The notes below the pieces were generated by a model that saw only the letters and a list, made by a program, of their open reading frames with translations, was not told where the DNA came from and did no database searches. From a virus, in the IMG/VR virus record IMGVR_UViG_3300036832_000354, positions 1 to 38,202 of that record: a DNA stretch of 38,202 nt; one strand, given 5' to 3'. Numbering within the stretch: the first letter of the stretch is position 1; every line of letters starts with the position of its first letter. Below, piece after piece: positions 738 through 12,209 of the stretch. A program made the translations under genes and the position numbers.

Positions 738-767
738 TTCGCTTTTCCCCGCCGGGTAGGGTATGCT
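738..767 (+). promoter_or_regulatory. Putative promoter of the ribozyme operon
   Basis: TATGCT at 762-767 is a plausible -10, with TTCGCT 18 bp upstream as a weak -35. The bases before the -10 (CCGGGTAGGG) closely match those before the -10 of the better promoter at 13139-13168 (CCTGGTAGGG). It is the only promoter-like site between the decamer array and the first gene. Confidence 0.45.
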
Positions 768-860: not shown

Positions 861-905
861 GTTGTGCCGCCAGAGGTACAACATCGCTTCTTGAGAACTC
901 AATAG
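861..905 (+). promoter_or_regulatory. Hairpin plus rRNA-leader-like boxA element
   Basis: An 8-bp stem (861-868 with 875-882, one G-U pair, loop GCCAGA) is followed by CTTCTTGAGAACTCAATAG. The TTGAGAACTCAA core matches, from memory, the conserved leader element ahead of 16S rRNA in actinobacterial rrn operons, which is linked to Nus-dependent antitermination and processing. I infer that the phage leader recruits host antitermination factors so that polymerase passes the many RNA structures downstream. Confidence 0.5.
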
Positions 906-1016
906 TTGATATCTCCCCCATCGACCGATGGGCGACCACTAGCCCGTACGCGGGACGTGGGAGCACCATCTGAGCATGCGGACGACGGCGAGCTTGTGTA
1001 GCTCGTATTCGCGATG

Positions 1017-1080
1017 TGGCGAAACCCGGTGGCACCGGGTCCATGACGCCAGCCCTGCGTCGTGCTGATGAGCCAAGGGC
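1017..1080 (+). ncRNA. Type II hammerhead ribozyme, copy 1
   Basis: Stem II is open (TGGC 1017-1020 with GCCA 1072-1075). GAAA is at 1021-1024, and stem III is 1024-1030 with 1034-1040. The GUC cleavage triplet ends at C1041. Stem I is 1042-1048 with 1058-1064 (one G-U), followed by CUGAUGA at 1065-1071. The stem-I loop bases GCCCT (1052-1056) can pair with AGGGC (1076-1080). All core bases are intact. It lies in the 5' leader of the first gene, with GGGAG 6 nt beyond the pseudoknot. Confidence 0.9.
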
Positions 1081-1097
1081 ACCGATGGGAGTATACC

Positions 1098-1418
1098 ATG
1101 ACCACCACCAACAACCGCAACGCCAACCACGTCGACACCGAGTCGGCGGAGTTCAAGGCGCTGGTTGAGGCGCAGGTTGCCGCGCAGCTTGAGACTCGGC
1201 TTGCCGAGGAACTGGCCAAGCGGCCCGTGGTTGAGGCGACTGGCTACAAGTCGTACGCGACCAAGGCCATCCCGCCCAAGGCGGCCCAGTTCGCCGAGTG
1301 GATTGGCCGCGAGTTCGCAGCTCTGTACCCGCAGGGCCTGAACGACCGCGACGCACGTCTCGTGATGATCGCCATCCGGACGTACCGCAACTTCCAGCAG
1401 GAAGTCAACCCCAAGTAG
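1098..1418 (+). CDS. Small protein with W..F/TY..FQ domain (paralog of 16290-16730)
   Basis: This 106-residue protein starts at an ATG 6 nt after GGGAG; an upstream ATG in the same frame lies inside the ribozyme core and is not the start. The N-terminal half is Ala/Glu-rich and probably helical. The C-terminal half (about 55-104) has the pattern P..A.F..W, then I.I.TY..FQ...N. The same pattern occurs in the protein at 16290-16730, so the two look like paralogs with one shared domain of about 50 residues. I do not recognise the family. It is the first gene of the ribozyme operon and ends one base before ribozyme 2. Confidence 0.85.
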   Translation: MTTTNNRNANHVDTESAEFKALVEAQVAAQLETRLAEELAKRPVVEATGYKSYATKAIPPKAAQFAEWIGREFAALYPQGLNDRDARLVMIAIRTYRNFQQEVNPK

Positions 1419-1483
1419 TGGCGAAACCCGGCAGCCAGCCGGGTCAGTGTGAGATGACCTACACACTCTGATGAGCCAGGTCA
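1419..1483 (+). ncRNA. Type II hammerhead ribozyme, copy 2
   Basis: Stem II is TGGC 1419-1422 with GCCA 1475-1478. GAAA is at 1423-1426, and stem III is 1426-1432 with 1438-1444. Cleavage is predicted after C1445. Stem I is AGTGTG 1446-1451 with CACACT 1462-1467, followed by CUGAUGA at 1468-1474. Loop bases TGACC (1455-1459) pair with GGTCA (1479-1483). All core positions are intact. It begins immediately after the preceding stop codon. Confidence 0.92.
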
Positions 1484-1498
1484 CCGATGGGAGATAAC

Positions 1499-1633
1499 AT
1501 GAACGAGTGTCTGTTCCTTGCTGGCCTTGACAATGGCAATTACGTCCCAGTGCGCGAGTGCCCGTGTGACGCCTGTACATTCTCAATCCAGGTCGGCGAG
1601 CTCAGCGAAGCATACATCATGGCAAACCAGTAG
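1499..1633 (+). CDS. Small Cys-containing protein (44 aa)
   Basis: ATG lies 5 nt after GGGAG in the leader left by ribozyme 2, and the frame runs 44 codons to a TAG that overlaps the start of ribozyme 3. The product carries CPCDAC near residues 21-26, a possible metal-binding knuckle. No family is recognised. Its position, spacing and leader match the other genes of the array, which is the main evidence that it is real. Confidence 0.7.
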   Translation: MNECLFLAGLDNGNYVPVRECPCDACTFSIQVGELSEAYIMANQ

Positions 1634-1698
1634 GCGAAACCGGAGGGATACCCTCCGGTCTGCGTGAGATGACCACCACGCACCGATGAGCCAGGTCA
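1633..1698 (+). ncRNA. Type II hammerhead ribozyme, copy 3 (variant core)
   Basis: Stem II is GGC 1633-1635 with GCC 1690-1692. GAAA is at 1636-1639, and a 9-bp stem III is 1639-1647 with 1651-1659. The cleavage triplet ends at C1660. Stem I is TGCGTG 1661-1666 with CACGCA 1677-1682. Loop TGACC 1670-1674 pairs with GGTCA 1694-1698. The catalytic box at 1683-1689 reads CCGAUGA, so conserved U4 is replaced by C, which should weaken or abolish cleavage. It overlaps the upstream stop codon by one base. Confidence 0.78.
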
Positions 1699-1714
1699 CC
1701 GATGGGAGATTGAA

Positions 1715-1942
1715 ATGGCGAGCAATGACAGGTATGCCACCGCTGTAGACAACAACAGCTACAGCGGCAGCGGCACCGTTAACACGACCAAGGTCTCGAT
1801 TGTGCGAGTCGACGTCAGTGTTGATGCGCAGTACCTGGACACAAGTGATGTCGAAAGTGTCGTGGTCTACGTCAATGGACGTCCGCTGAGCAGGATGCAC
1901 CCGAGTCGCGCAGCGCGACTGGGCATCATTCGCCCCAGCTAA
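1715..1942 (+). CDS. Hypothetical protein (75 aa)
   Basis: ATG is 6 nt after GGGAG in the leader after ribozyme 3. The N-terminal third is Ser/Thr/Asn-rich; the rest reads as alternating hydrophobic and polar residues (VSIVRVDVSVDAQ, then VVVYVNGRPL), suggesting beta-strands. No family is recognised. The gene ends 8 nt before ribozyme 4. Confidence 0.75.
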   Translation: MASNDRYATAVDNNSYSGSGTVNTTKVSIVRVDVSVDAQYLDTSDVESVVVYVNGRPLSRMHPSRAARLGIIRPS

Positions 1943-1950
1943 GCAAGCCA

Positions 1951-2008
1951 AGCGAAACGGCGTGAGCCGTCGGCAGGAACTGACCTACCTGCCCTGATGA
2001 GCTAGGTC
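1951..2008 (+). ncRNA. Type II hammerhead ribozyme, copy 4
   Basis: Stem II is AGC 1951-1953 with GCT 2001-2003, a change on both sides relative to the GGC/GCC copies. GAAA is at 1954-1957. Stem III is ACGGC/GCCGT (1957-1961 with 1966-1970) closed by a GTGA loop. Cleavage is predicted after C1971. Stem I is GGCAGG 1972-1977 with CCTGCC 1988-1993, followed by CUGAUGA at 1994-2000. Loop GACCT 1982-1986 pairs with AGGTC 2004-2008. Confidence 0.9.
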
Positions 2009-2021
2009 CAAAAGGGAGAAC

Positions 2022-2231
2022 ATGATGGGCATTGTTATTGGCATCGCGCTGTACATCCTGCCGTCGATCATCGCTGCTACTCGCAGTGAGAAGGTCAACG
2101 TGGGCAGTATCGTGGTGATCAACCTGCTCCTGGGCTGGACAGTCATCGGCTGGATCATTTCCCTGGCCATGGCTGTCGGCAACGGCAAGCACAGCATCAC
2201 GATCAACAACAATAACAGCATCAACCAGTAG
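2022..2231 (+). CDS. Superinfection immunity (Imm-like) membrane protein
   Basis: This 69-residue protein has two hydrophobic segments (about 2-18 and 30-50) separated by a short basic stretch containing R23. The pattern YILPSIIA..R..., then NLLLGWTVIGWI, is the signature of the superinfection-immunity family related to phage T4 Imm. Known members sit in the inner membrane and block entry of DNA from a second phage. Its place among the first genes fits early expression. Two adjacent ATGs (2022 and 2025) follow GGGAG; either could be used. The Asn/Ser-rich C-terminal tail is soluble. The stop codon abuts ribozyme 5. Confidence 0.85.
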   Translation: MMGIVIGIALYILPSIIAATRSEKVNVGSIVVINLLLGWTVIGWIISLAMAVGNGKHSITINNNNSINQ

Positions 2232-2297
2232 TGGCGAAACCCTTCCAAAAAGGAGGGTCGGCAGGGAATTGGCTACCTGCCCTGATGAGCCAGCCAA
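2232..2297 (+). ncRNA. Type II hammerhead ribozyme, copy 5
   Basis: Stem II is TGGC 2232-2235 with GCCA 2289-2292. GAAA is at 2236-2239, and stem III is 2239-2245 with 2252-2258, with an A-rich loop. Cleavage is predicted after C2259. Stem I is GGCAGG 2260-2265 with CCTGCC 2276-2281, followed by CUGAUGA at 2282-2288. Loop TTGGC 2269-2273 pairs with GCCAA 2293-2297, a compensated change from the TGACC/GGTCA copies. Confidence 0.92.
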
Positions 2298-2314
2298 CCA
2301 CCGATGGGAGAACA

Positions 2315-2782
2315 ATGGACACAGAAGGCACAGAAGTCACAGTTGAAGAATTGCCACCGTGTAACTTCATCCACGACAAGCCTGAGCCTGCCCTGTACGA
2401 TGGCAAGACCATACACGGGCCGTGGGCGTTCATGTGCGAAGAGCACTTCCGCATGTACGGCACAGGACTCGGAATGGGCAAGGGCCAGCGTCTGGTGGTG
2501 AAGCAGCCCGAACAGAAGCAGAAGCTCGATGAGCAGTCTGTCCGCGCATGGCTGACCAGCTATGTGTGGCTGCCGAGTCACCAGGACCACAAGAAGGAGA
2601 TGGTCGACTGCATCATATCGCAGGGCGGCTGGGAATACATCTCCGCGCGAGCCGACCAGTTCGCAGGCGCGCAGGAAGAGCCAGGACCCAAGGCATTCAG
2701 CGAGGGCATCCAGTTCGCGCTGTCCGAGCTGTACGAATGCCACACTGGCCCGCACCTCGAAACCTGCCCTGACCACCACTAA
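2315..2782 (+). CDS. Hypothetical protein with His/Cys-rich ends (155 aa)
   Basis: ATG lies 4 nt after GGGAG; the frame is open upstream only through the ribozyme. The N-terminal third has C16, then MCEEHF near 40-45 and a Gly-rich GTGLGMGKGQ stretch, resembling phage proteins with an N-terminal zinc site. The C-terminus carries further Cys and His (YECHTGPHLETCPDHH), possibly a second metal site. No named family is claimed. Ribozyme 6 starts 3 nt after the stop. Confidence 0.8.
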   Translation: MDTEGTEVTVEELPPCNFIHDKPEPALYDGKTIHGPWAFMCEEHFRMYGTGLGMGKGQRLVVKQPEQKQKLDEQSVRAWLTSYVWLPSHQDHKKEMVDCIISQGGWEYISARADQFAGAQEEPGPKAFSEGIQFALSELYECHTGPHLETCPDHH

Positions 2783-2784
2783 CC

Positions 2785-2842
2785 AGCGAAACGCCGTGAG
2801 GCGTCTGTGGGAATGACCTCCCCACACTGATGAGCTAGGTCA
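2785..2842 (+). ncRNA. Type II hammerhead ribozyme, copy 6
   Basis: Stem II is AGC 2785-2787 with GCT 2834-2836. GAAA is at 2788-2791. Stem III is ACGCC/GGCGT (2791-2795 with 2800-2804) with a GTGA loop. Cleavage is predicted after C2805. Stem I is TGTGGG 2806-2811 with CCCACA 2821-2826, followed by CUGAUGA at 2827-2833. Loop TGACCT 2814-2819 pairs with AGGTCA 2837-2842. Confidence 0.92.
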
Positions 2843-2859
2843 AACGATGGGAGATGAAA

Positions 2860-3216
2860 GTGAAGCACGCAGCAGACAAGCTGAGCCGGGCCGCAAGTGC
2901 GGTGTACAGGCTTCGCAATGCTGAGCCCGATCCAATGGGTGATCCCAGTGGTGACGCAGGTGAAGCGATTGCCGCCTGGGAACGTGGCTGCCTCTTGAAG
3001 GCAGTCGCGGACGCTGGCTACGAGAACCCAGGACAGTACAACCTGGACCTCGCAGCGCGAACCACCCCGGCTTGGGCATCGAGACTGGAAATCGAGCACG
3101 TGTGCCAGTGTGGCACTGCGCAGGACATCAGGCACTTCATGACTCGCAACTACGGCGGTGGAACGGACACCGTCCTGTCCTGCGCGAACTGTGGCGAAAT
3201 GGATGTGTACGTATGA
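2860..3216 (+). CDS. Hypothetical protein with C-terminal zinc-ribbon-like Cys pairs
   Basis: I chose GTG 2860 because it lies 6 nt after GGGAG, like other starts in this operon; an in-frame ATG at 2854 directly abuts the Shine-Dalgarno and would give two more residues. The 118-residue product has a helical, Ala-rich N-terminus and a C-terminal region with CQCG and CANCG, a typical four-Cys zinc-ribbon arrangement about 30 residues apart. Function is unknown. The stop overlaps the next ATG (ATGA), so translation is probably coupled. Confidence 0.75.
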   Translation: MKHAADKLSRAASAVYRLRNAEPDPMGDPSGDAGEAIAAWERGCLLKAVADAGYENPGQYNLDLAARTTPAWASRLEIEHVCQCGTAQDIRHFMTRNYGGGTDTVLSCANCGEMDVYV

Positions 3217-3305
3217 GCTACGTCCCGCGCCATGCCAGGAAGAGCAGCCTGGTCGCCATCATCGACTGGGTAATCAAGGCCCTGACTGGAGAGACCTGTG
3301 CCTGA
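3213..3305 (+). CDS. Very small protein (30 aa)
   Basis: ATG overlaps the preceding stop as ATGA. The product has a basic start (YVPRHARKSS) followed by a hydrophobic/amphipathic stretch (LVAIIDWVIKAL), possibly a small membrane-associated peptide. Its TGA overlaps the next gene, so it sits in a tightly coupled trio. No homology is recognised. Confidence 0.5.
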   Translation: MSYVPRHARKSSLVAIIDWVIKALTGETCA

Positions 3306-3468
3306 AGAGGAGCAACTCAAGCAGAACAGGGAACTCCACCCATGGCGTGATGATGAGATGTTCCGCGAGATCATGGGCGTAATGGAAAAGGAGGAAATCC
3401 CCTGGTGCGCAAAGTGCGCTGACTGGCACTACCCGAATGAGGAGCACTCAGACATAACAGTGCCATAG
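3298..3468 (+). CDS. Small acidic protein with CxxC (56 aa)
   Basis: The GTG start overlaps the end of the previous frame by 8 nt. The peptide is Glu-rich with helical character, then has WCAKCADWHYP near residues 38-48, a CxxC...H knuckle likely to bind zinc. It reads open for 56 codons to a TAG just ahead of ribozyme 7, which fits the pattern of a last gene in one ribozyme-delimited segment. Function is unknown. Confidence 0.6.
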   Translation: MPEEEQLKQNRELHPWRDDEMFREIMGVMEKEEIPWCAKCADWHYPNEEHSDITVP

Positions 3469-3470
3469 CA

Positions 3471-3529
3471 GGCGAAACGCCGTGAGGCGTCCGTGGGGAA
3501 TTGCCTACCCACGCTGATGAGCCAGGCAA
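3471..3529 (+). ncRNA. Type II hammerhead ribozyme, copy 7
   Basis: Stem II is GGC 3471-3473 with GCC 3521-3523. GAAA is at 3474-3477. Stem III is ACGCC/GGCGT (3477-3481 with 3486-3490). Cleavage is predicted after C3491. Stem I is CGTGGG 3492-3497 with CCCACG 3508-3513, followed by CUGAUGA at 3514-3520. Loop TTGCCT 3501-3506 pairs with AGGCAA 3524-3529, another compensated version. Confidence 0.92.
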
Positions 3530-3543
3530 CAAGGGAGATGGGA

Positions 3544-3792
3544 ATGACAAAGGACCAGATGAAAGACCTGTCCGGGCTGTTCGCTCAGCAGGCGACTGGA
3601 ACCGAGAGCTTCAGTAACGGTATTGCGCCGTTCACTGTCCAGTTCGGGTATGTCAATGAGGTGTGCTGCCACGACGGCGTGCGCATCCTGGACTGCCCGC
3701 AGTCGCTGCTCAACGCAGTAATCGAATGGGCCAAAGGACAGACGCCGTACGTGGGCGTGTCCATTCATAACGGCGCGCTGTTCGTCAAGTGA
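3544..3792 (+). CDS. Hypothetical protein (82 aa)
   Basis: Of two ATGs after GGGAG, the one at 3544 has the usual 6-nt spacing; the one at 3538 abuts the Shine-Dalgarno. The first half is polar (KDQMKDLSGLFAQQ); the second contains CCHDGVRILDCPQSLLNAVIEW and ends in alternating hydrophobics. No family is recognised. The stop overlaps the next GTG (GTGA). Confidence 0.75.
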   Translation: MTKDQMKDLSGLFAQQATGTESFSNGIAPFTVQFGYVNEVCCHDGVRILDCPQSLLNAVIEWAKGQTPYVGVSIHNGALFVK

Positions 3793-4019
3793 CGGACAAT
3801 CGCCAGATCTACCAGGTTGACCCCAAGAAGGTCACCACTGGAAAGGTCTACCCGAATGATGTCCGCCAGCAGAAGGCGCGGCTCCAGGAAGAAGGGCAGA
3901 TTGAGCCCATCGAGACAACCCCGGATCTGGTGATCCGGACTGACGCCTGGTTCTACTCAGGTGCTCAGGTCCAGGCGGCCATCGAGCTAGGATGGCCGAC
4001 AATCCTCGTGACATACTGA
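3789..4019 (+). CDS. Small ParB-N-like protein
   Basis: This 76-residue protein begins at a GTG coupled to the preceding stop. The order DPKKV..., then NDVRQQKARLQEEGQIEPIET, then AWFYSGAQVQAAIELGWPTILVTY resembles the ParB/sulfiredoxin N-terminal fold found in partition proteins and phage ParB-like nucleases, where a query residue set surrounds a nucleotide site. No HTH domain follows, so it is a stand-alone domain. A link to the decamer array is only a thought. The stop codon lies 2 nt before ribozyme 8. Confidence 0.6.
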   Translation: MTDNRQIYQVDPKKVTTGKVYPNDVRQQKARLQEEGQIEPIETTPDLVIRTDAWFYSGAQVQAAIELGWPTILVTY

Positions 4020-4021
4020 AA

Positions 4022-4080
4022 GGCGAAACGCCGGGAGGCGTCGGCAGGGAATGACCACCCTGTCCTGATGAGCCAGGTCA
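4022..4080 (+). ncRNA. Type II hammerhead ribozyme, copy 8
   Basis: Stem II is GGC 4022-4024 with GCC 4072-4074. GAAA is at 4025-4028. Stem III is ACGCC/GGCGT (4028-4032 with 4037-4041) with a GGGA loop. Cleavage is predicted after C4042. Stem I is GGCAGGG 4043-4049 with CCCTGTC 4058-4064 (one G-U), followed by CUGAUGA at 4065-4071. Loop TGACC 4052-4056 pairs with GGTCA 4076-4080. Confidence 0.92.
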
Positions 4081-4094
4081 ATGAAGGGGAGAAA

Positions 4095-4340
4095 ATGGAA
4101 GACGAAGCCATCGTGATCGAAGGCGAAGACAATGTTCGCATGGCACGCATCCTCGCGCTGCGAAGTGCCCTCAAGATCGAGGTCACGACCAGCATGAAGC
4201 TGAGCCGAGGCAGGAGCGCCCGCGCCATCGCGCAGGAGTTCCTGAAGCTGCCGGGCCGGCCAACTGCCAGGACGGTGTACAAGAAACTGAATACGTACAT
4301 CGTGGATCAGCTGGGCGCGGACTTCGACAGGCCGTTGTGA
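4095..4340 (+). CDS. Hypothetical helical protein (81 aa)
   Basis: ATG is 3 nt after GGGAG. The N-terminus is acidic; the central and C-terminal part (about 30-75) is basic and helical, with RGRSARAIAQEFLKLPGRPTARTVYKKLNTYI. That pattern could form a helix-turn-helix, but I cannot name a family. The stop overlaps the start of the next gene (TGATG). Confidence 0.7.
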   Translation: MEDEAIVIEGEDNVRMARILALRSALKIEVTTSMKLSRGRSARAIAQEFLKLPGRPTARTVYKKLNTYIVDQLGADFDRPL

Positions 4341-4546
4341 TGTTCTACAACTCTGTCGAAGATGCCATGAAGGCAATCGATCTAGCCACTGAAGACACGA
4401 TCAAGGACAGTCCAGAACTCCAGGCGCAGGAAGACTCGGTTTACTGGGAAATTGCCCAGTCAATCATGTACGACTGCTCCCTGGAAATCCGCCGCGAGCT
4501 ATCACGTCGAACAGGAGTCCCTATTCCAGGAAGCCTTGACGACTAG
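4340..4546 (+). CDS. Hypothetical small protein (68 aa)
   Basis: ATG overlaps the previous TGA; a GTG three bases earlier is an alternative. The protein is mostly helical and acidic (DAMKAIDLATEDTIKDSPELQ), ending in RRELSRRTGVPIPGSLDD. No family is recognised. It is the last gene before the promoter at 4544-4573, whose -35 overlaps the stop codon. Confidence 0.65.
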   Translation: MFYNSVEDAMKAIDLATEDTIKDSPELQAQEDSVYWEIAQSIMYDCSLEIRRELSRRTGVPIPGSLDD

Positions 4547-4573
4547 CTCCACGAGCCGGTCATACGGTATAAT
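4544..4573 (+). promoter_or_regulatory. Promoter for the RepA-like ATPase
   Basis: TAGCTC (4544-4549), 18-bp spacer and perfect TATAAT (4568-4573). It belongs to the family of six similar promoters in this window. Confidence 0.75.
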
Positions 4574-4580
4574 CAAGATA

Positions 4581-4598
4581 GGGCGCGAAACCGCGCCC
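4581..4598 (+). promoter_or_regulatory. 5'-leader hairpin
   Basis: GGGCGCG and CGCGCCC form a 7-bp perfect stem around AAAC, just after the promoter and about 20 nt before the ATPase start. It probably sits at the 5' end of the message. No U-tract follows, so it is not a typical terminator. Confidence 0.6.
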
Positions 4599-4617
4599 GA
4601 GAAAGTGGGAAGACTGA

Positions 4618-5565
4618 ATGGCACTCGTGAAAGCGTACGATCTGGACACTAGCCCGCCGGAGTTCCTGGTTGAAGACATTATCCCATTCACAGGGATTGG
4701 CTTCATCTGGGGCGAGTCCCGTGTGGGCAAGAGCCTCCTGACGAATGGCGAGCTAGCGCTAGCCATCACGAACGGGGCAGAGTTCTTCGGCAAGAAGACT
4801 GTCCAGTCCTCGGTCGCGATCTGCTTGGGCGAAGGCCTGTATGATGCCGGCGTGCGAAAGCTAGCTAGGCTGGCCAGGGAACAGCAGGACCGCCTGGAAA
4901 TTGCTGAGCAACTTCTCAGGGCAAAGAATGATGTCGACAAGGTAAGTAGGTGGTTTGAAGAACTGCCCGAGTACACCGACGACAACTTGTACTTCATGAC
5001 CGAGCCGTTCGTGCTACCACTAGACAACGGCGGCGAGAAGACCAGCTCTCTGCGCTCGGCGATGTCCTCGCTGAAGCAGATTCCAGATCTGGGCATAGTG
5101 ATCCTGGACTCCTTGGCCGACTTCACGCCGTCCTTGTCCATCTCGAATGATGCGAGTGCGAACCGCATCGTCCAGGGCATGAAGATGATGGCGCGGGAAC
5201 TCGACTGTGTGGTCCTCGCCGTAGCCCATCCGCTCCGGGACAATTCCCGGATGCTAGGCGCAGGAAGGCTGTTCAACTCCAGCGACTTCGTGATCAAGAT
5301 CGAAGCGGAAGGAGCAGTGGGAACTGGAGCGACAGTCTCCTGCGAGAAGAACAAGTATGGCCGGCCATTCGAGCCGTTCGGCTATACAATCGAAAGCTGC
5401 GCCTGGGAGGATGAAGAGTCCGGAGCCATTGTCGAGACCGCGACCGTGCGGTCAAGACAAGAGCAAGAACGGGAGATACAAGTAGAAAAGCCAGAGCGGA
5501 AGCTGCCGACATTCCTGAGGCGTGACCACGGGAAGCAGAAGAGAACTGGAATGCGATCGAGGTGA
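4618..5565 (+). CDS. RepA-like AAA/RecA-fold ATPase
   Basis: This 315-residue protein has a Walker A GESRVGKS (32-39) in the context GIGFIWGESRVGKSLL, and a Walker B GIVILDSLADF near 157-167, followed by an Asn/Asp-rich segment and VVLAVAHPLRD. This arrangement matches the RepA/RSF1010-like hexameric helicase group (AAA_25), which unwinds DNA or loads at replication sites. The C-terminal tail is charged and likely disordered. It has its own promoter and a structured leader. An ATPase of the recombinase class is an alternative. Confidence 0.8.
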   Translation: MALVKAYDLDTSPPEFLVEDIIPFTGIGFIWGESRVGKSLLTNGELALAITNGAEFFGKKTVQSSVAICLGEGLYDAGVRKLARLAREQQDRLEIAEQLLRAKNDVDKVSRWFEELPEYTDDNLYFMTEPFVLPLDNGGEKTSSLRSAMSSLKQIPDLGIVILDSLADFTPSLSISNDASANRIVQGMKMMARELDCVVLAVAHPLRDNSRMLGAGRLFNSSDFVIKIEAEGAVGTGATVSCEKNKYGRPFEPFGYTIESCAWEDEESGAIVETATVRSRQEQEREIQVEKPERKLPTFLRRDHGKQKRTGMRSR

Positions 5566-5567
5566 AA

Positions 5568-5623
5568 GGCGAAACCCCGAGTGCGGGGTCCACGAGGCGC
5601 CACCTCGTGCTGATGAGCCAGGC
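5568..5623 (+). ncRNA. Type II hammerhead ribozyme, copy 9
   Basis: Stem II is GGC 5568-5570 with GCC 5617-5619. GAAA is at 5571-5574. Stem III is ACCCCG/CGGGGT (5574-5579 with 5584-5589). Cleavage is predicted after C5590. A 7-bp stem I is 5591-5597 with 5603-5609, followed by CUGAUGA at 5610-5616. The stem-I loop is only 5 nt, so the loop-to-tail pairing shrinks to about 3 bp (GCC 5599-5601 with GGC 5621-5623). It is the only copy outside the first transcription unit. Confidence 0.88.
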
Positions 5624-5636
5624 AAAGGGAGATGGG

Positions 5637-5930
5637 ATGCCAAGAAAGCGCATCAACCTCAGCGAGATCCTGCCGCCGACATGGACGGCAGTTCACACTA
5701 CCGCGAGCGGCCGCAAGGGTGCGACTCGCTGGATGATCTACGACGGCGAAGACAACTACCAGGGCGATCTCGTGCGCTGGCGCGGAGACTGGAATGTCAG
5801 ACTCCCCAGCCAGGAGCCCGGCGAGTCCTGGTCATGGCAGCCGTACAACTCGGAAGATCCAGGCGTCGTCGAGGGCACTGTTAATCAGTGTTCCGAAGCC
5901 ATCTTCGATCTTGATGGTAGGGAGCGGTAA
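5637..5930 (+). CDS. Hypothetical protein (97 aa)
   Basis: ATG 5637 is 5 nt after GGGAG; another ATG at 5632 abuts it and is out of frame. The product is basic at its start (PRKRINLSEILPP), then rich in Trp/Tyr and Asp (RWMIYDGEDNYQGDLVRWRGDWNVRLP), suggesting a compact beta-sheet domain. No family is recognised. It is the last gene whose leader carries a hammerhead. Confidence 0.75.
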   Translation: MPRKRINLSEILPPTWTAVHTTASGRKGATRWMIYDGEDNYQGDLVRWRGDWNVRLPSQEPGESWSWQPYNSEDPGVVEGTVNQCSEAIFDLDGRER

Positions 5931-5938
5931 ACCCACGC

Positions 5939-5968
5939 TAGACGCACCGGCGTCTGGTGGAGTATAAT
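5939..5968 (+). promoter_or_regulatory. Promoter for the first HNH gene
   Basis: TAGACG (5939-5944), 18-bp spacer and TATAAT (5963-5968). A perfect AGACGC/GCGTCT hairpin (5940-5955) overlaps the -35 and spacer and may end upstream transcription or act as an operator. Confidence 0.75.
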
Positions 5969-5997
5969 AGGACTAGGGACGGCCGGAAGGGGATGGA

Positions 5998-6414
5998 ATG
6001 TTTGAGAAGGGACTGCCCGGCTGCCGTACCTGCGGCAAGCAGCTAAGTAGCCAGAATGTTACTGGCTACTGTCGAAGCTGCTTTGGCAAAACCAGGAGAG
6101 GTCCCAATAGCCCATCATGGAATGGTGATAATGTCACCGAGTATCAGCTACATAGACGGATCTGGTCCACTCGCGGTAAGGCCAAGGAGTATGATTGCGT
6201 AAGCTGCGGCGAACCGGCTGATGAATGGTCGCTAACCCATGACGCTGACCCGTATGATGTGAATAACTATAACCCAAGATGTTTTTCGTGCCATAGATAC
6301 TACGACAAGCCGGGGCATGGAAACCTAGGCAAACCGTGGAGTCAAGCGAGACGAGACATTCCAATTAGGAGGGATGACAATGGCAGGTTTGCCAGGTTAC
6401 GACGATTATCTTGA
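5998..6414 (+). CDS. HNH homing-type endonuclease
   Basis: This 138-residue protein has an N-terminal zinc knuckle (CRTCGKQ, then YCRSC) and a C-terminal HNH module: YDCVSCGEPADEW, then H..DPYDVNNYNPRCFSCHRYYD, with paired CxxC motifs flanking the His. Phage proteins of this type are free-standing homing endonucleases that nick or cut DNA. It has its own promoter and a GGAAGGGG leader. The gene is more AT-rich than its neighbours, as expected for a mobile gene. It shares this module with the protein at 25037-25393. Confidence 0.85.
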   Translation: MFEKGLPGCRTCGKQLSSQNVTGYCRSCFGKTRRGPNSPSWNGDNVTEYQLHRRIWSTRGKAKEYDCVSCGEPADEWSLTHDADPYDVNNYNPRCFSCHRYYDKPGHGNLGKPWSQARRDIPIRRDDNGRFARLRRLS

Positions 6415-6733
6415 TAACTACGGAAATCCGGGAATGGGAGCAGAAGTGAACGTGAACTATCCGCGCTGGGCAATTGAAGAGCGCATCTACGTGACCCAGG
6501 TCACGAAGAACCCCGACACCTACAAGATCAACCGGAAGGACGGCATCGGGGAGTTCACGATCAGCTTCCGCGAACATGACCGCCGACTACTGATCAATGG
6601 CGAGGATGTCGATCTGGGAGATGACTTCATCGAGTTCATCTCAATCATCGACGATTTCCATGAGGATGATGTTCCGCTTGGCGAGGCCAGCCTCCAGCAG
6701 CCGTATGATGGTGACCCAGATGTCCGAGCTTAA
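6380..6733 (+). CDS. Hypothetical acidic protein (117 aa)
   Basis: AGGAGGG at 6367-6373 favours ATG 6380 over the ATG at 6374. The gene overlaps the HNH gene by 35 nt. The protein is acidic with aromatic residues (DDYLDNYGNPGMG, then FTISFREHDRRLLINGEDVDLGDDFIEFISI), suggesting a beta-rich domain. No family is recognised. Its end overlaps the next start by 14 nt. Confidence 0.75.
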   Translation: MAGLPGYDDYLDNYGNPGMGAEVNVNYPRWAIEERIYVTQVTKNPDTYKINRKDGIGEFTISFREHDRRLLINGEDVDLGDDFIEFISIIDDFHEDDVPLGEASLQQPYDGDPDVRA

Positions 6734-7028
6734 CAAGCGTGAGAACGAGATCCGCGCCAAGGCGAAGGAGTGTAACCTCAGCGTCAGCTCCCACAAGGGG
6801 GTCGTGACCATCAATGGCAAGTTCACTCCCGGAGACAAGGACGCCTACATGAAGATGGAGGCTGACGCCAATACCGTTCTCGGGATGTTCCGGCAGACCC
6901 GCCTGGGCAGTGTCTGGGGCACGGACTCCAGCAGTGTCGGCGGGTACGTCGGCATGACGAAAGGCTATGTCCTTCTCCACAAGTCAGGCGTCGAGATGCG
7001 CCTGGCCGACAGGTTCAAGCAGGCATGA
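6720..7028 (+). CDS. Hypothetical protein (102 aa)
   Basis: It starts inside the preceding gene's 3' end. The N-terminal segment is basic and helical (LNKRENEIRAKAKECNL), followed by a beta-rich region and a Gly/Ser-rich stretch (GTDSSSVGGYVGMTKGYVLLHKSG). No family is recognised. The stop overlaps the next ATG. Confidence 0.7.
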   Translation: MSELNKRENEIRAKAKECNLSVSSHKGVVTINGKFTPGDKDAYMKMEADANTVLGMFRQTRLGSVWGTDSSSVGGYVGMTKGYVLLHKSGVEMRLADRFKQA

Positions 7029-7270
7029 TGGCTGACAACGACGCTCCACTTCCCCTTATCGTCATCGTCAGGTGGCCTGCTGAACCCGACCGTGGACAGG
7101 AGGTGTATGGTCCATTCGATGATGAGGAAGCACAGATCGACTGGACTGACAAGTGCATCCACGCACAGAAGCACGGCAGCCTGCAACTGAAGGGTGCCGA
7201 GTACGTCTGTACCAGAATGGACAAGCCATTCGACCCGTTCAACTTCATCAATGAAAAGAATGAGGCATAA
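7025..7270 (+). CDS. Hypothetical protein (81 aa)
   Basis: Two consecutive ATGs (7025, 7028) overlap the previous stop. The sequence reads PLIVIVRWPAEPDRGQEVYGPFDDEEAQIDWTDKC, a pattern seen in small phage proteins of unknown role with a beta-alpha core. The TAA overlaps the next ATG (TAATG), so translational coupling is likely. Confidence 0.75.
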   Translation: MMADNDAPLPLIVIVRWPAEPDRGQEVYGPFDDEEAQIDWTDKCIHAQKHGSLQLKGAEYVCTRMDKPFDPFNFINEKNEA

Positions 7271-7431
7271 TGCTCGTCAGCGCCCAGGAAATTGCCGACC
7301 GGCTCAACGCAATGGAGGATGATGATGTCCTCGCCGTGATCAAGCACGGTGATGAATTCGAGATCATCGATCTCGATGCCGACCCCAAGGGAAGCCACCA
7401 CAGGCCGGAGGAAGACAACGATGGAGTTTGA
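7270..7431 (+). CDS. Small acidic protein (53 aa)
   Basis: ATG is coupled to the preceding TAA. The peptide is Asp/Glu-rich (MEDDDVLAVIKHGDEFEIIDLDADP) and ends in a His-containing tail. It overlaps the start of the DUF2786 gene by 11 nt. Its tight coupling on both sides supports a real gene. Confidence 0.6.
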   Translation: MLVSAQEIADRLNAMEDDDVLAVIKHGDEFEIIDLDADPKGSHHRPEEDNDGV

Positions 7432-8383
7432 CAAGGTACTCGACAAGATCCGGGGCCTGATCGCCAAGGCTGAGAGCCTTGAGGAATCAAGCGATCCCGA
7501 CCAGCTTAACGAGGCACTTGCCTGCCGCAACCGTGCCGACGCAATGATGCAGAAGTACGCGGTTGAGGAATGGCAGGCCCGCGCAGCCGCGCCGGTCGCC
7601 TCCAAGCCGGACAGGATCAAGATCAAGATCGGCGAGGATGGCAATCCATTCCTCGGCGAGATGGCCGGCCTGGTCAACATCGTCAGCCAATTCTGTAAGT
7701 GCTCGTCCGTCTGGATGGTCGGCGGCGGCAAATACACCGAGGACAAGCAGGAGTTCTGCTGGGTCTATGGCTACGAGTCTGACCTGCGCTACTTCGAGAT
7801 GCTCTTCACCACGCTGTTCCTCCACATGAACGGCGCGATCTTCCCCAAGCCTGACTTCAACAAGACCCTGGGCGAGAACGCCTATGAGCTCCACAACGCC
7901 GGGCTTAACTGGCTGGACATCGCACGGATGTACGGCTGGTACGAAGTCCAGCCACTGCCGCACGAGCCAGTCGCGGGCATGTTCGTCAACCGGAACACCG
8001 GCGAGCGCGTCAGCTGGCATGGCTCGGTAGGCAAGATCAAGAAGGCATACACCGCCGAGATCACCAGGCGTGGTGAGAAGTTCTTCCGCATCTCGCCGAA
8101 CGGCAGTGAGACCTACCGGCGCAACGCTGCCCAGGGATACATCGCCCGCATCAATCAGCGACTTCACGAGGTCGCCGGCAAGCGTGGAAGCGGAGCCGAG
8201 CTGGTTCTCGCCGACAAGAGCCAGAACATCACCGCACTCATGAACGAGCACTTCGGGAACCTGCATAGCGTTGGCTCCAAGAAGACAACCTACAACGAGG
8301 CAGCCTACCGCCACGGCGTACGGCACGCTAACTCGGCAGCCCTCAACCCGCAGGCGACCGGGCCACGAACGGCACTCAGCTAG
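7421..8383 (+). CDS. DUF2786 domain protein
   Basis: This 320-residue protein opens with FDKVLDKIRGLIAKAES, followed by NEALACRNRADAMMQKYAVEEWQ. That is the DUF2786 pattern (about residues 3-50), a short domain seen in phage and bacterial proteins of unknown function. The middle (about 70-200) contains metallopeptidase-free mixed alpha/beta sequence, and the C-terminus is basic. I chose ATG 7421; a longer frame begins further upstream inside the preceding gene. The activity is not known. Confidence 0.8.
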   Translation: MEFDKVLDKIRGLIAKAESLEESSDPDQLNEALACRNRADAMMQKYAVEEWQARAAAPVASKPDRIKIKIGEDGNPFLGEMAGLVNIVSQFCKCSSVWMVGGGKYTEDKQEFCWVYGYESDLRYFEMLFTTLFLHMNGAIFPKPDFNKTLGENAYELHNAGLNWLDIARMYGWYEVQPLPHEPVAGMFVNRNTGERVSWHGSVGKIKKAYTAEITRRGEKFFRISPNGSETYRRNAAQGYIARINQRLHEVAGKRGSGAELVLADKSQNITALMNEHFGNLHSVGSKKTTYNEAAYRHGVRHANSAALNPQATGPRTALS

Positions 8384-8392
8384 GAGCAGGGC

Positions 8393-8698
8393 ATGGACAA
8401 CACCGGCATTCACCGCCTAGAGTCAGAGATCCGCGCCAAGCGTAACGACATCCTAACCGCGATCAGCCAGAGGTATGTCCGGCCGAACAGAATCAAGATC
8501 ACTGAGATCCGGCGTGACGTCGATGAGCTCAAGGGCATGGTGTTCGCCTGGGTGTACGTCAGCGGCAAGTGGGAGGGTATTCACCGGATCACTGAAGTAA
8601 CAGACCAGATCAACGACCTCATCATGCTCTGGCTCAGCGTCGACCTCAAGAAGATGCTCGACCAGGTTTACCCAAAGAAGGCACCGCGCGATGTCTAG
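8393..8698 (+). CDS. Hypothetical protein (101 aa)
   Basis: ATG follows GGAGCAGGG. The protein is mostly helical and basic at the start (LESEIRAKRNDILTAISQRY), with IHRITEVTDQINDLIMLWL near 63-81. No family is recognised. It overlaps the next gene by 8 nt. Confidence 0.75.
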   Translation: MDNTGIHRLESEIRAKRNDILTAISQRYVRPNRIKITEIRRDVDELKGMVFAWVYVSGKWEGIHRITEVTDQINDLIMLWLSVDLKKMLDQVYPKKAPRDV

Positions 8699-8981
8699 CA
8701 AGTGGACAGTAGTTCAGCATAGCGGCTTCGGCTACAACGGCAACCCGCAGTTCGAACAGGCCGTCGAGACAACTGGCGGCTTGACGACGGCTGAAGCCAA
8801 ACTGGTGGAGCACGTCGGCGGTGTGGTTTTTGACACATACATGGAAGCCGAGGAATTTGCCGAGAAAGCCAACTACCCGGAAAGCAACTTCGGCATAATC
8901 CCGACCGCCAAGGGTACCTTCAGCACCAGGCGCATAAACGGACTCAAGATATACATCCCAGTCCGTAGCGTCACCGGGTAG
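8691..8981 (+). CDS. Hypothetical protein (96 aa)
   Basis: It starts within the 3' end of the preceding gene. WTVVQHSGFGYNGNPQFEQAVETT leads into a helical EAKLVEHVGG and EAEEFAEKANYPE, ending in IYIPVRSVTG. This resembles small phage proteins of an alpha/beta type; no name is claimed. Confidence 0.75.
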   Translation: MSSKWTVVQHSGFGYNGNPQFEQAVETTGGLTTAEAKLVEHVGGVVFDTYMEAEEFAEKANYPESNFGIIPTAKGTFSTRRINGLKIYIPVRSVTG

Positions 8982-8983
8982 CC

Positions 8984-9190
8984 ATGGCCGTCATACTCAT
9001 AGGCCCAGCTGAAGGTCCGCGCTGTCCGACACACGGACAGATGCGCATCGACATGCCGGGCGACAAGTACGTCTGTCGCGGATTCGACGGCGAGGGCTGT
9101 GACTATGAAGTGACCATGGAAGAATGGTACGCCAGCTTCAAGCCGATCGGCTACATCGACAGCGACGGAATCAAATTCAAATGGGAATAG
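8984..9190 (+). CDS. Small zinc-ribbon-like protein (68 aa)
   Basis: CPTHGQMRI near residues 14-22 and YVCRGFDGEGCDYEV near 29-43 form two metal-binding half-sites, as in short zinc ribbons. The gene starts 2 nt after the previous stop. The role is unknown. Confidence 0.75.
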   Translation: MAVILIGPAEGPRCPTHGQMRIDMPGDKYVCRGFDGEGCDYEVTMEEWYASFKPIGYIDSDGIKFKWE

Positions 9191-11169: not shown

Positions 11170-11382
11170 ATGAAGACGTACCGCGCGGTCATCGTGCCGA
11201 AGCCCGATGCGCCGAATGACGAGTACACCTCCGCGCTCCTGCGTATGGAGCTGACCTTCACGATCGGCGCTAAGGCACCCATCATCGACCCGCAGATCAT
11301 CATCCAGCGCAACCTCGCCGACCTCCACATCACCAACTTCATGCGCGTCGAATCACTTGAGGAAGTGAAGAATGGGTCATGA
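11170..11382 (+). CDS. Hypothetical protein (70 aa)
   Basis: It begins 3 nt after the previous stop with GAGGTAGGCG as ribosome site. KTYRAVIVPKPDAPNDEYTSALLRMELTF suggests a beta-alpha-beta start. It overlaps the glycosyltransferase start by 4 nt (ATGA), so it is probably coupled to it. Confidence 0.7.
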   Translation: MKTYRAVIVPKPDAPNDEYTSALLRMELTFTIGAKAPIIDPQIIIQRNLADLHITNFMRVESLEEVKNGS

Positions 11383-12209
11383 CTGTATATATCCCGACCC
11401 TGGGCAGAATCGAGATGCTCAGGAAGACAGTTCCATTCTGGCTTAAGCAGGAGATGCCAGTCAGGCTGGTCGTCGAGCGCCGCGAGTACGCAGCTCATAC
11501 CAAACTGGTTCGAGAAGAGAAGTGGAGTAGTGACGTACAGGTTCTTCCACTACCACTAGCCGGGCGCGGAATTGGATACGCCCGGAAGTTCTGCGTGGAG
11601 CACGCCAAGAAGGCAGGTCTCGATGCTATCATCATGAGTGACGATGATAGCTACGTAAATCCGACATCTGACGCCTGGCTCCTCATCGACGAAGCAGAAA
11701 AGCCGGAAACCCTCGGCATTGGTGCGGTCCGTCCACTCTTCGATCGCTTCACGAACGGCGCCATCTCCGCCAATAGCGGGCCAATCCTCTGCCCAGGCGG
11801 CTGGGGATTCAAGCTATGGGGACTCAACATCGAGAACGCACTTGAGTGCGGCAATTACGACCCAGCCCTTTTCTGCTTCAGCGAGGATGCTGAAATGGCT
11901 CGGCGCGGGATTGCCCTTCTTGGCCTCCCATGGCTAGTGCACTGCGACGTTCAGTACACGGCCGCAAACAAGCGATACGACGCCGGAGGTTTCGAGAGCG
12001 TATACCACAACAACATGAACGCAAGGCTAGCGGCCGAGCGCGAATGCATGGCTATCGTGTACAAGCGCTGGCCTAAGTATGCGAACACTCCAGACAAGAA
12101 GTCACGCATGTCGTGGCAGAAAATGCTTGACGACTATATCCCAGACTGGAGAGAGGAATCTGCCATCCACGGCGGCGCTCTCAAATACTACTCCGCAGAG
12201 GATGCCTAA
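11379..12209 (+). CDS. GT-A glycosyltransferase (TAGT-like)
   Basis: This 276-residue protein opens VYIPTLGRIEMLRKTVPFW, typical of GT-A nucleotide-sugar transferases, and has a DxD-type metal motif in IIMSDDDSYV (about 85-94). A second block, LCPGGWGFKLWGLN, with FCFSEDAEMARR later, and the C-terminal RMSWQKMLDDYIPDW resemble phage transferases thought to glycosylate modified DNA bases (TET-associated group). No TET-type oxygenase is visible in this window, so the acceptor is uncertain: DNA, protein or host wall. The stop overlaps the next start. Confidence 0.75.
   Translation: MTVYIPTLGRIEMLRKTVPFWLKQEMPVRLVVERREYAAHTKLVREEKWSSDVQVLPLPLAGRGIGYARKFCVEHAKKAGLDAIIMSDDDSYVNPTSDAWLLIDEAEKPETLGIGAVRPLFDRFTNGAISANSGPILCPGGWGFKLWGLNIENALECGNYDPALFCFSEDAEMARRGIALLGLPWLVHCDVQYTAANKRYDAGGFESVYHNNMNARLAAERECMAIVYKRWPKYANTPDKKSRMSWQKMLDDYIPDWREESAIHGGALKYYSAEDA

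Follow-up and report, generated by a model that had tools for sequence, protein, structure and literature searches.

Nine type II hammerhead ribozymes in a probable lineage-specific array, predicted to process the early transcript of a phage

Here we describe nine type II hammerhead ribozymes on the + strand of one virus record from an uncultured phage (IMGVR_UViG_3300036832_000354; 38,202 bases, analyzed in full and referred to below as the window), where they span positions 1017 to 5623 and stand between the small genes of an early-gene-like region. Judging from the sequence, they very probably form a lineage-specific array that processes the early phage transcript, and we are similarly confident that most copies cleave in the cell. 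As to the purpose of such processing, we lean toward the production of independent, hairpin-ended messenger RNAs (mRNAs) over regulation or simple tolerance.

Identification and structure of the nine hammerheads

A pattern for the hammerhead core matched the window nine times but found no match in 100 dinucleotide shuffles of it. A stem-aware descriptor likewise gave nine matches on the + strand and none on the - strand, against a background of one match in 2.3 Mb of shuffled window. The Rfam type II covariance model, RF02276, a search with which had been proposed as a check in a preliminary description of this DNA, recovered the same nine copies with scores of 27.9 to 42.6 bits (E values, computed within the record, of 3.4e-9 to 2.4e-5). 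While four copies exceed the gathering score of 37 bits, the other five, at 27.9 to 31.1 bits, fall below it, apparently because they lack base pairs that the model expects in the top part of stem I. A scan with the whole of Rfam listed seven of the nine copies; its matches to PrrB_RsmZ and sR53 were below their own cut-offs and were set aside. No degenerate tenth copy was found on either strand of the window. The nine type II hammerheads of the preliminary description are confirmed by pattern, descriptor, and covariance model alike, and their membership in this class is virtually certain.

Type II hammerheads and their pseudoknot were found by Perreault et al. in 2011 (PMC3088659), and the copies described here share the features of RF02276: stems I and III are closed by loops, the short stem II is open at its outer end, stem III ends in the GUC triplet, the core consists of CUGAUGA and GAAA, and, as in most members of the type, a pseudoknot, which the preliminary description did not include, joins loop I to the 3' tail. 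This topology is found in all nine copies, with 5 to 9 bp in stem III, 6 to 8 bp in stem I, and 3 to 4 bp in stem II. The core, including A15.1-U16.1 and H17, is perfect in eight copies; copy 3 instead reads CCGAUGA (CCGATGA in the DNA), a U4C change, so that CUGAUGA is not common to every copy as first stated. The pseudoknot is 5 to 6 bp long except in copy 9, where it has only 3 bp. The copies differ from RF02276 in the five scores under the curated cut-off and in the U4C core.

Copy 1 (1017 to 1080), between the leader and gene 1, has a predicted cleavage site after 1041 (30.2 bits; E = 6.0e-6), stems III, I, and II of 7, 8, and 4 bp, and the pseudoknot GCCCU/AGGGC. Copy 2 (1419 to 1483; genes 1 and 2) would be cut after 1445 and scores 37.1 bits, above the gathering score, with the pseudoknot UGACCU/AGGUCA; the variant copy 3 (1633 to 1698; genes 2 and 3) would be cut after 1660 (30.4 bits). 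In the gap between genes 3 and 4, copy 4 (1951 to 2008) has its predicted site after 1971 (27.9 bits; E = 2.4e-5; pseudoknot GACCU/AGGUC), and between genes 4 and 5, copy 5 (2232 to 2297) has its site after 2259 (42.2 bits) and a compensated pseudoknot, UUGGCU/AGCCAA. For copy 6 (2785 to 2842; genes 5 and 6), cleavage is predicted after 2805 (29.7 bits; UGACCU/AGGUCA), and for copy 7 (3471 to 3529; genes 8 and 9), after 3491 (31.1 bits), again with a compensated pseudoknot, UUGCCU/AGGCAA. Copy 8 (4022 to 4080; genes 10 and 11) would be cleaved after 4042 (40.0 bits; UGACC/GGUCA) and copy 9 (5568 to 5623; genes 13 and 14) after 5590 (42.6 bits; E = 3.4e-9). Eight of these sites had been listed before and agree with the structures to the nucleotide; the one omitted is that after 1660.

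The pairing is conserved where the sequence is not. Summed over the copies, in-register pairs number 50/50 in stem III, 54/54 in stem I, and 41/45 in the pseudoknot; when 3' strands were exchanged among copies in 20,000 shuffles, these totals were reached in 0.005%, 0%, and 0.065% of cases, respectively, although the paralogous relationship of the copies makes strand swapping an imperfect null. The 3' strand of the pseudoknot takes four forms (AGGUC, AGCCA, AGGCA, and AGGGC), each matched by its own loop. Compensatory change in diverged stems around fixed core bases is hard to explain other than by selection at the RNA level. Covariation sets the hammerhead apart, whereas minimum-energy folds by themselves (z scores of -1.2 to -2.5) do not.

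Position of the ribozymes in the early region

The early-gene-like region occupies the first 6.7 kb of the window, on the + strand. Between the leader and gene 14 there are 10 gaps of at least 71 nt, 9 of which contain a ribozyme, always oriented with transcription. The exception is the 71-nt gap between genes 12 and 13 (4547 to 4617, + strand), where a TATAAT-like box and, after it, a GC-rich hairpin, GGGCGCGAAACCGCGCCC, together occupy 4568 to 4598, both recognized by resemblance to consensus only. The overlapping junctions of genes 6/7, 7/8, 9/10, and 11/12 contain neither a ribozyme nor such a box and hairpin. The earlier statement that each intergenic space carries a ribozyme therefore holds for the true gaps with that one exception and not for the overlapping junctions. 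Stop codons adjoin the 5' strand of stem II or precede it by a few bases, and the next Shine-Dalgarno sequence starts approximately 3 to 10 nt past the pseudoknot strand. Cleavage at all sites would yield separate mRNAs for genes 1, 2, 3, 4, 5, 6 to 8, 9 to 10, 11 to 13, and 14 onward, each downstream mRNA having a leader of 46 to 56 nt that starts in stem I. Of the predicted mRNAs, that between copies 4 and 5 carries only gene 4 (2022 to 2231, + strand), which encodes a 69-amino-acid, superinfection-immunity-like membrane protein (PHROG 1039; E = 7.9e-16).

A possible early promoter lies upstream of the array, where TAGGGT at 757 to 762 (+ strand) is a tentative -10 box recognized by its match to the consensus; TAGGGT boxes like it stand ahead of genes in relatives. 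The next gap after gene 14 (5931 to 5997) also has a TATAAT sequence. A systematic association of promoters in this clade with a 5' hairpin, which would parallel the 5' hairpins left by the ribozymes, was only weakly supported (24 of 162 TAGGGT/TATAAT sites versus a background of 9%) and is not relied on. Terminator-like sites were not found on the + strand between 600 and 6400, and a terminator role of the hairpins is thus not supported.

The untranslated leader before copy 1 contains, at 890 to 906 (+ strand), the motif CTTGAGAACTCAATAGT, which is identical to a motif of actinobacterial ribosomal RNA operon leaders. It occurs in 82 stretches of bacterial genomes, and several, among the matches listed, directly precede the 16S start GGAGAGTTTGATCCTGGCTCAG. 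Some Streptomyces and Nocardioides loci carry this antitermination-like motif as well, there followed by other sequence. Our guess is that it may aid polymerase read-through of a long, structured, and cut transcript. Ahead of the early region, positions 1 to 660 are densely occupied by noncoding repeats of the type GACACCCATCGAC / GATGGGCGTTGAC.

Beyond the early region, the window encodes an SNF2-type helicase, an exonuclease, a Sak4-like protein, a thymidylate synthase, and a DnaE-type DNA polymerase, with tail genes on the opposite strand. Since the polymerase is 48% identical to its counterpart in Mycobacterium phages (Butterscotch and Troll4, for example), the host is most likely an actinobacterium. 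A glycosyltransferase of the TET-associated (TAGT) type at 11379 to 12209 (E = 5e-11) suggests glycosylated DNA.

Relatives, other arrays, and published precedent

We searched in full 40 viral loci whose DNA polymerases are related to that of the window (47 to 88% identical). No hammerhead in them exceeds the cut-off, and this set lacks the array, though many of its loci are fragments; the only weak RF02276 match, near position 61971 of one relative, G050 (21.2 bits), is apparently coding sequence and was discarded. A DNA search of the early region against annotated phages returned no close relative and four weak matches. Gene 1 (1098 to 1418, + strand; 106 amino acids, function not assigned) has homologues in the relatives L127, L177, L178, and L179. 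Gene 13 (4618 to 5565, + strand) encodes a 315-amino-acid AAA_25/RepA-DnaB-like ATPase (Pfam PF13481; E = 2.5e-17); strong matches to it were found in four of the 40 polymerase relatives, the closest relative, L127, has a 64% identical homologue, and a search of viral contigs with this protein gave one relative. Gene 14 (5637 to 5930, + strand; 97 amino acids) has no assigned function. At the border of genes 13 and 14, where this phage has copy 9, the start of gene 14 overlaps the stop of gene 13 in L127 (TAATG), while in L179 the two genes are separated by other sequence.

L127 contains a single hammerhead-like element before its first gene (1080 to 1160) in which the stem III, stem I, and pseudoknot strands are intact and the core reads UUGAACA, as expected of a dead or repurposed ribozyme. 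The motif CTTGAGAACTC lies upstream of both elements, approximately 50 nt before that of L127 and 130 nt before copy 1; this suggests, from a single case, that the two share an ancestral leader position. Among 267 ribozymes compared, the nearest neighbor of eight of the nine window copies is another window copy, and we therefore read the array as having been amplified within this lineage.

Arrays are not restricted to this phage. A pattern scan of viral contigs gave at least 118 loci, and in the loci that were fetched, 272 ribozymes were found; a long open frame ends upstream of 86% of these (background, 29%), and a Shine-Dalgarno sequence and start lie downstream of 77% (background, 26%). Apart from the window, the array-bearing loci sort into five groups that have no long nucleotide similarity; in one of them there are three copies only. 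Named Streptomyces phages with arrays are R4 (JX182370; nine copies), phiELB20 (NC_041849; ten), and Hank144 (NC_054661; eight), all Arquatrovirinae, and whole-record searches found up to 12 ribozymes in one viral record; the view that nine copies are unusual is therefore not upheld. As in the window, the 8 to 10 type II hammerheads of these phages lie between small genes and along transcription; unlike in the window, the genes are different ones, and the loci have no long nucleotide similarity to this phage. Comparison of coordinates by eye placed 9 of 10 ribozymes in phiELB20 and 7 of 8 in Hank144 within gaps between annotated genes; one of those so placed slightly overlaps a start, and the remaining one in each phage runs well into an annotated start. 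In the stretches of the three records that we examined, only protein genes are annotated, and the ribozymes are unlabeled. The tiny genes 60.1, 67.1, and 75.1 of R4 (L171) cover type II hammerheads (record positions 41776 to 41840, 44144 to 44208, and 47096 to 47160) and are probably not real genes. Another contig of 27.9 kb (L052), without long nucleotide similarity to R4-like phages, has 11 descriptor matches in about 5 kb of its minus strand (approximately 3700 to 9100); its whole record has eight matches by Rfam. In three further records, two type II hammerheads stand 1 to 2 nt apart in one gap (G039, the record of L099, 46286 to 46418; G030 [L085], 51395 to 51528; and G033 [L090], 50999 to 51133), and such pairs would release a free RNA of approximately 65 nt.

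The suggestion that this arrangement may be undescribed is not supported as far as the concept goes, since Perreault et al. reported clusters of hammerheads around single genes or short blocks of genes in prophages and proposed processing into operon- or gene-length mRNAs (PMC3088659). That study saw in vitro cleavage of tandem arrangements taken from three bacterial genomes and, for the one of Agrobacterium tumefaciens, cleavage in E. coli as well. As in the clusters of Azorhizobium, Clostridium scindens, and Agrobacterium, several coding-strand ribozymes flank single genes or small blocks here; unlike those clusters, of which the Agrobacterium arrangement is triple (PMC3088659), this phage has nine copies, and hardly any true gap of the 14-gene region is without one. 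The variant of the haloviruses HF1 and HF2 also adjoins an early gene upstream in a polycistronic message, with a mapped 5' end no more than 3 nt from the cleavage site, and differs in being a single copy with a variant core (PMC3088659). To us the array is a striking instance of a type of arrangement reported in 2011, and its nine copies are not a record. In the open-access literature, with subscription papers largely outside our search, we found no description of arrays of eight or more copies or of those in R4-like phages; Rfam matching would reveal them to any searcher. New here are the absence of the array from the 40 polymerase relatives, many of them fragments, and the splitting by a ribozyme of a gene pair that is coupled (TAATG) in a relative.

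Proposed processing, alternatives, and meaning

As RNA polymerase leaves a gap, stem III would fold, then stem I, and then the core, stem II, and pseudoknot, and the fold would be complete at the moment when the next Shine-Dalgarno sequence is synthesized. The cut behind GUC would leave the upstream mRNA with stem III and a 2',3'-cyclic phosphate at its 3' end and the downstream mRNA with a 5'-hydroxyl on a first nucleotide that is already paired in stem I. The benefit, we infer, would be uniform, hairpin-ended mRNAs of one to three genes that are translated and decay independently. From what holds for bacterial mRNA decay in general, a 5'-hydroxyl and paired ends would protect such mRNAs from 5'-monophosphate-dependent and 3' exonucleases. 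The preliminary description had likewise read the ribozymes as punctuation yielding separate mRNAs with 5'-hydroxyl leaders and stem III at their 3' ends, a prediction backed by the sequence, the covariation, and the relatives.

Several observations weigh against this proposal. Given the candidate promoters near 757 and 4568, copies 1 to 8 and copy 9 may sit on two transcripts, so that punctuation between genes stands but the single message originally assumed may be two units. The pseudoknot of copy 9 is short, and when pseudoknots are left out of the computation, the lowest-energy structure of copies 1, 4, and 7 is one other than the hammerhead. The U4C change of copy 3 is found in 2 of the 272 viral ribozymes. 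According to the 2011 paper, U4C markedly reduces activity in vitro yet leaves enough in vivo for viroid infectivity (PMC3088659); copy 3 is therefore probably slow and may not be dead. Since 14 of 18 consensus hammerheads assayed in 2011 were active (PMC3088659), some copies in this phage may be inactive.

An alternative that we consider unlikely is that the ribozymes are regulated switches, in which ribosomes on neighboring genes, a ligand, or a protein control folding and cleavage couples translation to mRNA stability. Stop codons and Shine-Dalgarno sequences are so near that bound ribosomes would overlap the ribozyme, stem II is weak, and regulation was suggested in 2011 for slow phage variants (PMC3088659). 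However, there is no conserved ligand-binding domain, the loops are short and variable, the neighboring genes are unrelated, and constitutive cleavage is what the consensus cores and the strength of the stems point to. Less probable still is that most copies are decaying passengers, descended from a ribozyme of low effect that multiplied in the lineage and is now being lost. The U4C change, the altered core of the lone L127 element, and the 40 relatives without arrays would fit such decay, but eight of nine window cores are perfect despite far-diverged stems, and arrays recur in phage groups without nucleotide similarity. That the copies are DNA-level cassette borders, short intergenic repeats for recombinational gene shuffling with cleavage incidental, is very improbable: eight of nine copies are closest to one another, CGATGGGAG is common to several regions upstream of start codons, and relatives lack the array, yet it is pairing and not stem sequence that is kept, the core is fixed, and the orientation always follows transcription.

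Independent, hairpin-ended mRNAs thus remain our preferred purpose of the array. More tentatively, ribozyme arrays could be a general gene-punctuation strategy of actinobacterial phages, of several origins, that replaces promoters and translational coupling at gene borders; early mRNAs would then be alike in their ends (a 5'-hydroxyl on a paired first base and a 3' hairpin), their cistrons would be translated and decay independently, and they would escape 5'-monophosphate-dependent decay.

The function of phage hammerheads has been open since 2011, and the role of prokaryotic hammerheads was still an open question in a 2017 review (PMC6155905). At least one gene pair that is coupled in a relative is split by a ribozyme here, and this difference is in effect a concrete experiment of evolution on how operons are built. 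The function of phage hammerheads becomes testable in this phage and, most of all, in R4, whose record gives Streptomyces coelicolor as host, with exact predicted cut sites, distinctive ends (5'-hydroxyl and cyclic phosphate), and single-base core mutants as controls.

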